From: Paludibacter sp.
GTDB lineage: Bacteria > Bacteroidota > Bacteroidia > Bacteroidales > Paludibacteraceae
Direction: 5' to 3'
Assembly (NCBI GenBank): GCA_017882285.1
Contig: JADGPS010000002.1
Location: 1 to 64,000, forward strand
DNA length: 64,000 nucleotides
Shown: positions 17,763 to 18,042 of the stretch, in pieces
Position numbering within the stretch: the stretch's first letter is position 1
Layout: each line of letters begins with the position of its first letter
Translations under genes and position numbers: made by a program
Notes under the pieces: model-generated
Databases searched by the model: none
Seen by the model: only the letters and a program-made list of their open reading frames with translations
Told to the model about the DNA's origin: nothing

Positions 17763-17774
17763 ACTAATTAATCG

Positions 17775-17857
17775 TACCCGAAGCGGGACTTGAACCCGCA
17801 CAGCCGTGAAGCCAAAGGATTTTAAGTCCTTCGTGTCTACCATTCCACCATCCGGGC
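17775..17857 (-). tRNA. tRNA-Leu(UAA)
   Basis: gcccgga...acttaaaat...variable arm...gcgggttcaagtcccgcttcgggta; anticodon TAA; acceptor stem pairs. Confidence 0.92.
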
Positions 17858-17890
17858 AGAATACGACAAATACCCTTATTTAACCTAAAA

Positions 17891-17959
17891 GAAGCCAAAG
17901 GATTTTAAGTCCTTAGTGCCTGCCTGCGGTAGGCAGGTCTACCATTCCACCATCCGGGC
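17891..17959 (-). pseudogene. Truncated tRNA-Leu copy (5' portion only) with a 19-nt hairpin insertion in the D-arm
   Basis: Matches the 5' part of tRNA-Leu 17775-17857 except one substitution and insertion cctgcctgcggtaggcagg at 17919-17937; variable and T arms absent. Confidence 0.88.
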
Positions 17960-17969
17960 AGGGTACTTG

Positions 17970-18042
<73 letters not shown>

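Follow-up and report, generated by a model that had tools for sequence, protein, structure and literature searches.

Organization of the tRNA-Gly/tRNA-Leu locus

The window analyzed here, a 64,000-nucleotide stretch of the genome of Paludibacter sp., contains an intact pair of tRNA genes with a broken tRNA-Leu copy between them (Table 1). By alignment, the 69-nt fragment corresponds to positions 1-50 of tRNA-Leu(UAA) with one substitution (window position 17915) and a clean 19-nt insert, which begins after ...GGTAGA and whose insertion point is ambiguous by one base. The earlier note had already described a 5' copy of tRNA-Leu(UAA) that differs by one substitution and by a 19-nt insert in the D-arm, and ARAGORN predictions and alignment reproduced its coordinates exactly. 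The fragment lacks the 3' side of the variable arm, the T-arm and the 3' strand of the acceptor stem, and an Rfam scan that scored both intact tRNAs left it unscored; the previous statement that it cannot be a working tRNA thus stands.

The hairpin formed by the insert has a predicted folding energy of -12 kcal/mol (z -3.1), and the whole fragment folds about as well as its shuffles (z -1.0). The number of chance matches to the palindrome expected in the window (three or fewer mismatches) was 0, and an origin of the palindrome by chance is excluded. The 3' part of the spacer between the fragment and the intact tRNA-Leu (TTGTCGTATTC) matches the plain Gly-Leu spacer of scar-less relatives, and the ORF list at the locus held no ORF trace within this spacer.

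Table 1. Features of the tRNA-Gly/tRNA-Leu locus in the window.
Feature	Coordinates	Strand	Basis or remark
Intact tRNA-Leu(UAA), working copy	17774..17857	-	ARAGORN; Rfam RF00005, 58.3 bits
33-nt spacer, fragment to intact tRNA-Leu	17858..17890	-	Position of the GIY-YIG ORF in full 5'-type elements
Displaced 5' part of tRNA-Leu(UAA), positions 1-50, with hairpin	17891..17959	-	Alignment; common to G002 and G020
19-nt palindrome CCTGCCT-ACCGC-AGGCAGG in the D-loop, after tRNA position 22	17919..17937	-	Alignment, copy search, folding
Intact tRNA-Gly(GCC), upstream neighbour in the tRNA pair	17969..18042	-	ARAGORN; Rfam

A palindrome family dispersed in the genome

The earlier note had taken the hairpin to be a unit that inserted as a whole, and the copy search supports this view. 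The 19-mer is not unique, having five exact copies in the genome, and its core TGCCT-N5-AGGCA was found at 35 places, one of them AT-rich and chance-like, which leaves about 34 sites, whereas the reversed control gave two matches on each strand. The copies fall mainly into two versions, CCTGCCTACCGCAGGCAGG and CTTGCCTGCGGCAGGCAGG, and nearly all of those examined lie outside long open frames. The genome thus has a dispersed, REP-like palindrome. A search for a RAYT-type transposase, proposed at the same time, returned one RAYT-like Y1 transposase gene with the same palindrome approximately 120 bp upstream of its ORF. A GTAG-type tag is not conserved beside the palindrome copies (the GTAG at the window copy is tRNA sequence, and the other copies have none), and assignment to the GTAG-tagged REPs was rejected on this tag criterion.

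Several copies have a context of their own. In G000, the palindromes at L003, L019 and L020 lie within a shared AT-rich repeat, TTTATAAAGTTTGAAAG-[palindrome]-TTTATAAAGTT, and are therefore flanked by direct repeats. The CTTGCCTGCGGCAGGCAGG version occurs inside longer repeated sequences at L014 and L025-L027 of G000, once as an inverted pair 64 bp apart, resembling a composite REP element. In one Patescibacteria genome, the palindrome CCTGCCTGCGCAGGCAGG is found in frame (DLPAQAG) in an atpD-like gene (L239, G385:C33:9975-9998), a situation similar to that of the Rickettsia palindromic elements. Among the other hairpin families, only TCCCGA-TCGGGA was seen in 181 kb of flanks (5 matches against 0 in the reversed control), in a pool too small to decide the matter.

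The Gly-Leu spacer in related species

The fragment and its hairpin also occur in G002 and G020, two further species of the genus, where they lie in the same Gly-Leu spacer and the fragment has the same truncation point (GGCTTC/TTT). The reading of the earlier note would have failed with a 19-mer unique in the genome and sister strains pointing to local slippage or an assembly error, but the 19-mer is not unique and these relatives have the same allele. Assembly error was rejected, as fragment and hairpin coincide in three independently assembled genomes. In G032, G027, G031 and G028 the Gly-Leu spacer is short and plain. Five further species (G017, G001, G004, G022 and G018; L055-L059) carry a tRNA-Gly 3' tail fused to the hairpin TCCCGAT..ATCGGGA in this spacer, again ORF-less, and this remnant is a second kind of scar. 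With two different hairpin-bearing tRNA remnants in the Gly-Leu spacer, the combination of a partial tRNA and a hairpin must have arisen at least twice there.

In G022, a T-to-C change is common to the tRNA-Gly fragment and the intact tRNA-Gly, a hint of gene conversion. In G002, a CRISPR-like array (L053, approximately 1850-2800, G002:C15; repeat of 47 nt, period of 77 nt, at least 12 copies) begins directly behind the tRNA-Leu terminator, and a short ATGTTTACG stretch ahead of this array resembles the start of a Leu-type GIY-YIG ORF.

GIY-YIG ORFs between broken and intact tRNA genes

A scan of approximately 85,000 species genomes for the D-loop junction matched the two relatives and two unrelated genomes, L083 (Patescibacteria) and L084 (Woesebacteria). 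In L083, a tRNA-Leu 5' part, read as GGTAGA/CCTGCCTGCCGGCAGGCAGG/CACGCGGG, is followed by a GIY-YIG ORF (MYYVYILQSMSKGVFYKGLTNN...) and an intact tRNA-Leu(CAA), the stop codon of the ORF lying inside the downstream tRNA. In L084 (3020-3150), an intact tRNA-Leu(CAA) has upstream of it two tRNA-Leu 5' fragments in succession, whose D-arm hairpins differ.

Because of the arrangement in L083, the genus was searched for GIY-YIG genes. There, short GIY-YIG ORFs adjoin intact tRNAs, with a hairpin-bearing, truncated copy of the adjoining tRNA behind the ORF. In L120 (G016), tRNA-Gly and tRNA-Leu(UAA) are followed by a terminator, the ORF and then TAAAATCCTTTGGCTTCACGGCTGTTCGGG, CCTGCCTGCCGCAGGCAGG and TTCAAG..., so that the tRNA and the palindrome family of the window recur in mirror arrangement. 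This mirror type (3' type) is common in the genus; at tRNA-Leu(UAA), and with the same palindrome family, it was found in L120 and L139. The genome of the window itself holds two complete elements, L119 at tRNA-Met (hairpin TCCGCCAGCTGGCGGA) and L140 at tRNA-Pro (TCCCGTTAGGGCGGGA). Within the genus, no Leu(UAA) element of the 5' type that still has an ORF was found.

A search of 398 Bacteroidota and 384 Patescibacteria genomes for the pattern GGTARACCTGCCT-N4-7-AGGCAGG gave the following loci. L232/L233 (the same as L183; Bacteroidota) has a Leu(CAG) 5' part with hairpin plus ORF twice in tandem, followed by the intact tRNA-Leu(CAG). L234 (Patescibacteria) consists of a Leu(UAA) 5' part with hairpin, the ORF and the intact tRNA-Leu(UAA), L240 has the same order at tRNA-Lys, and L235 is an independent, ORF-less scar like that of the window. 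The D-loop insertion site of the window was found again in L183, L198, L175 and L234. In L198 (tRNA-Arg), the 5' fragment preceding the ORF extends over tRNA positions 1-52, close to positions 1-50 in the window.

A full element is thus composed of a broken tRNA half with a hairpin, a GIY-YIG nuclease ORF of approximately 80 codons, and an intact copy of the same tRNA. In the 5' type, to which the window belongs, the hairpin-bearing 5' tRNA part comes first, then the ORF and finally the intact tRNA. The 3' type starts with the intact tRNA, continues with a terminator and the ORF, and ends in a hairpin-bearing 3' tRNA part. In both types, the displaced part nearly always holds a GC-rich palindrome, usually at a tRNA loop. 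The short ORF between the tRNA copies is present in L083, L183, L232, L234, L120, L119 and others. The window has the same-strand displaced part of its neighbouring tRNA and the palindrome at a loop of that part (D-loop, position 22), and has no GIY-YIG ORF between the broken and the intact copy. The link to GIY-YIG genes is invisible in the window because the ORF is gone, and it was missed in the earlier note.

Survey of tRNA-adjacent GIY-YIG genes

A profile (A1) was built from 14 tRNA-adjacent GIY-YIG proteins, in the alignment of which the catalytic residues Y5, Y16, G18, R26 and E63 are invariant. Matches to the profile were present in 90 of 149 Bacteroidota genomes and, in the phylum to which L084 belongs, in 136 of 192, and single genomes had as many as 21. 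Over all loci collected, ORF and neighbouring tRNA have the same orientation in 88 cases and opposite orientations in one.

Hairpins were scored in 65 pairs of fragment and intact tRNA, a perfect stem of at least 6 bp with a loop of 3-10 nt being required. Such stems were present in 46 of the 65 fragments and in 12 of their 65 intact counterparts (discordant pairs 38 vs 4, p = 3e-8). Of 36 inserts of at least 12 nt, 26 were located in a D, anticodon or T loop, compared to 14.4 expected (p = 5e-5). Both p values are guides only, because the survey is biased toward tRNA-adjacent proteins, from which its profile was built, and many of the pairs are related to each other. The inserts of at least 12 nt have a median fold z of -2.1. 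Several of the 19 fragments that fail the strict stem criterion are cut short or belong to a tRNA-Pro set with 5-bp stems. In the 5'-type fragments, the inserts are found at tRNA positions 15-23, mostly 21-23, as in the window. For the initiator-Met hairpins covariation was weak, with one of six pairs changed on both sides, not beyond shuffles.

The tRNA isotype follows the nuclease tree, with 18 changes as opposed to a mean of 34.6 and a minimum of 31 in shuffles. The Leu nuclease clade includes both 3'-type (L120, L139) and 5'-type (L183) elements.

Tandem arrays

Tandem arrays define the unit of the element. The 3'-type arrays start with the intact tRNA, and each unit that follows comprises a terminator, an ORF and a hairpin-bearing 3' part, as in L246, where three such units with the palindrome family of the window stand behind tRNA-Leu(UAA). 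In the 5'-type arrays (L243 at tRNA-Ser, L244 at tRNA-Pro) the intact tRNA stands behind the last unit. The arrays fit repeated insertion at the loop that carries the hairpin as well as single crossovers of a circle carrying a hairpin-bearing tRNA part, and the data favour neither. Another 3'-type array, L241 (G126:C34:6300-10300), has eight tandem GIY-YIG units at tRNA-Met; most of these units have a second palindrome near the acceptor side, and the first tRNA copy has no recognisable 5' half.

Origin of the fragment and role of the hairpin

The anatomy described above recurs over many tRNA isotypes in two phyla, with nuclease clades specific for individual tRNAs and with ORF-less scars. Judged from sequence comparison, the fragment and hairpin in the window are probably (about 0.8) the ORF-less scar of a small tRNA-targeting GIY-YIG mobile element. 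Points against this reading are the spacer, which has no ORF remnant, and the genus, in which no ORF-bearing 5'-type element at Leu(UAA) was found. The intact tRNA-Leu, which the earlier note had used as a direct reference for the state before insertion, is then not a plain pre-insertion allele, since fragment and hairpin were probably inherited together from such an element: in many genomes, hairpin-bearing tRNA fragments recur as one end of GIY-YIG elements, with different hairpins in different tRNAs.

A possible mechanism would start with the nuclease cutting its own tRNA gene, after which repair or recombination from the element-bearing allele could copy the element in. Since the host needs the tRNA, the element would have to bring a replacement tRNA part, so that one working tRNA is kept and the native part is displaced, as in the mitochondrial mORFs that bring a gene end of their own (PMC3630166). 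The hairpin may then disable the displaced part, either by breaking the nuclease target or by blocking the pairing of its RNA with the intact tRNA, and its sequence may be taken from the dispersed REP-like palindromes of these genomes. The window would then have lost the ORF and kept the hairpin-bearing part.

As the hairpin lies 3' of the ORF in one type and 5' in the other, it is unlikely to act in the ORF mRNA alone. That the displaced part regularly has a hairpin suggests that this part is disabled, by a broken target, by blocked RNA pairing or by a DNA structure that the enzyme reads. We regard disabling of the nuclease target or of the RNA, taken together, as somewhat favoured, and a neutral bias of palindrome insertion into loops as unlikely. 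Equally unlikely in our judgement is that the locus derives from an element whose hairpin serves as a mobility signal and not as a disabling device, a structure-selective GIY-YIG enzyme recognising it as a cruciform or hairpin. The nearest solved structures are those of UPF0213 proteins and of the structure-selective nuclease SLX1, and an enzyme-read DNA structure is therefore a possibility; in addition, the hairpin sits at the presumed junction of element and displaced part, both in 5'-type and 3'-type elements and in all units of the arrays that were examined closely. Against such a signal, the sequence, length and exact place of the hairpin vary widely among elements.

Somewhat less probable again is an origin with no GIY-YIG element at the locus, by chance partial tandem duplication of tRNA-Leu and later insertion of a REP-like palindrome into the non-essential copy, the palindrome perhaps being moved by a RAYT-type transposase at the loop of a folded single strand. 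This sequence of events would leave the same sequence as a scar. The dispersal of the palindrome, the copy close upstream of the RAYT-like gene, the insertion of the family elsewhere (as in the atpD-like gene of L239) and the missing ORF all agree with it. However, the same D-loop site, palindrome family and Leu tRNA are found beside GIY-YIG ORFs in unrelated lineages, another hairpin-bearing tRNA remnant occupies the same spacer in five sister species, and the copies are not accompanied by a conserved GTAG tag.

That the fragment is a conserved small RNA derived from a tRNA-Leu half is very improbable. The identity of its counterparts to it is 68/69 in G002 and 63/69 in G020, as compared to 26/40 and 18/33 for the fragment-Leu spacers, a degree of conservation that gene conversion from the nearby intact copy could also yield. 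On the other side, the whole fragment folds no better than its shuffles, the six substitutions in G020 break tRNA pairs, and the fragment has no Rfam match. tRNA genes are the usual landing sites of tyrosine-recombinase islands and group I introns, but a remnant of either can practically be discarded, since such islands normally duplicate the 3' end of the tRNA whereas the 5' part is duplicated here, the ORF list around the locus contains no integrase, no Rfam intron family was matched and the intact tRNA-Leu is uninterrupted.

Beyond the scar itself, the elements may represent a large class of bacterial homing elements at tRNA genes, with one mini GIY-YIG clade per tRNA, a replacement tRNA part and a palindrome as a regular working part (for self-protection, RNA quarantine or as a mobility signal); we give this wider reading even odds. 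If true, the dispersed palindromes of Bacteroidota and Patescibacteria would in part be by-products or partners of the elements, and several annotation oddities would be accounted for, namely tiny tRNA-adjacent GIY-YIG genes, protein tails read from tRNA sequence and hairpin-bearing tRNA pseudogenes. The class would also offer a testable route for the entry of short palindromes into structured-RNA genes, and its minimal nucleases, specific for individual tRNAs, would lend themselves to the study of specificity.

Comparison with known systems

Searches of open-access full texts gave no description of bacterial GIY-YIG elements with displaced, hairpin-bearing tRNA parts, and the class is therefore, provisionally, apparently undescribed. 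REP/RAYT sequences and the Rickettsia palindromic elements are, like the palindromes here, short dispersed palindromes that insert as units; small palindromes are among their targets, and some copies enter genes in frame (PMC3733652). Unlike REP/RAYT, the palindromes here have no conserved GTAG tag, and insertion in tRNA fragments accompanies a GIY-YIG element and not a Y1 transposase.

The insertions in rRNA genes of CPR bacteria are likewise non-intron, contain GIY-YIG ORFs and affect structured-RNA genes, most of them being located at the top or base of stem-loops (PMC11270868). They differ in lying within rRNA genes, and the main-text passages of that report mention neither tRNA nor hairpins and present no GIY-YIG homing pattern (PMC11270868). 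SegB of phage T4, a free-standing GIY-YIG homing endonuclease, resembles the tRNA elements in that its gene is intron-less and lies among tRNA genes, and it spreads by homing, but the target listed for it is a phage tRNA intergenic region, and the account in that source describes no flanking duplicates of tRNA parts and no hairpin (PMC2988022).

The nearest known kind is the fungal mitochondrial mORF with a replacement gene end, as given in the relevant part of PMC3630166 for Allomyces atp6 and for atp6, atp9, cox2 and nad3 of Glomus. In both systems, a working hybrid gene end and the displaced native end flank a free-standing ORF of homing-endonuclease type, and the Glomus atp9 mORF is, like the tRNA elements, of the GIY-YIG family (PMC3630166). 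The mORFs target protein-coding genes in fungal mitochondria, with no hairpin reported for the displaced end in that part of the source (PMC3630166), whereas the elements described here target bacterial tRNA genes and regularly have a hairpin in the displaced part. This mORF-like anatomy of endonuclease ORF plus replacement gene part is present in the relatives, while the ORF is absent in the window. If the class is real and mobile, it would reside in essential tRNA genes in most of the Bacteroidota and Patescibacteria that were sampled, and would be a common bacterial counterpart of the mitochondrial endonuclease ORFs that replace gene ends.
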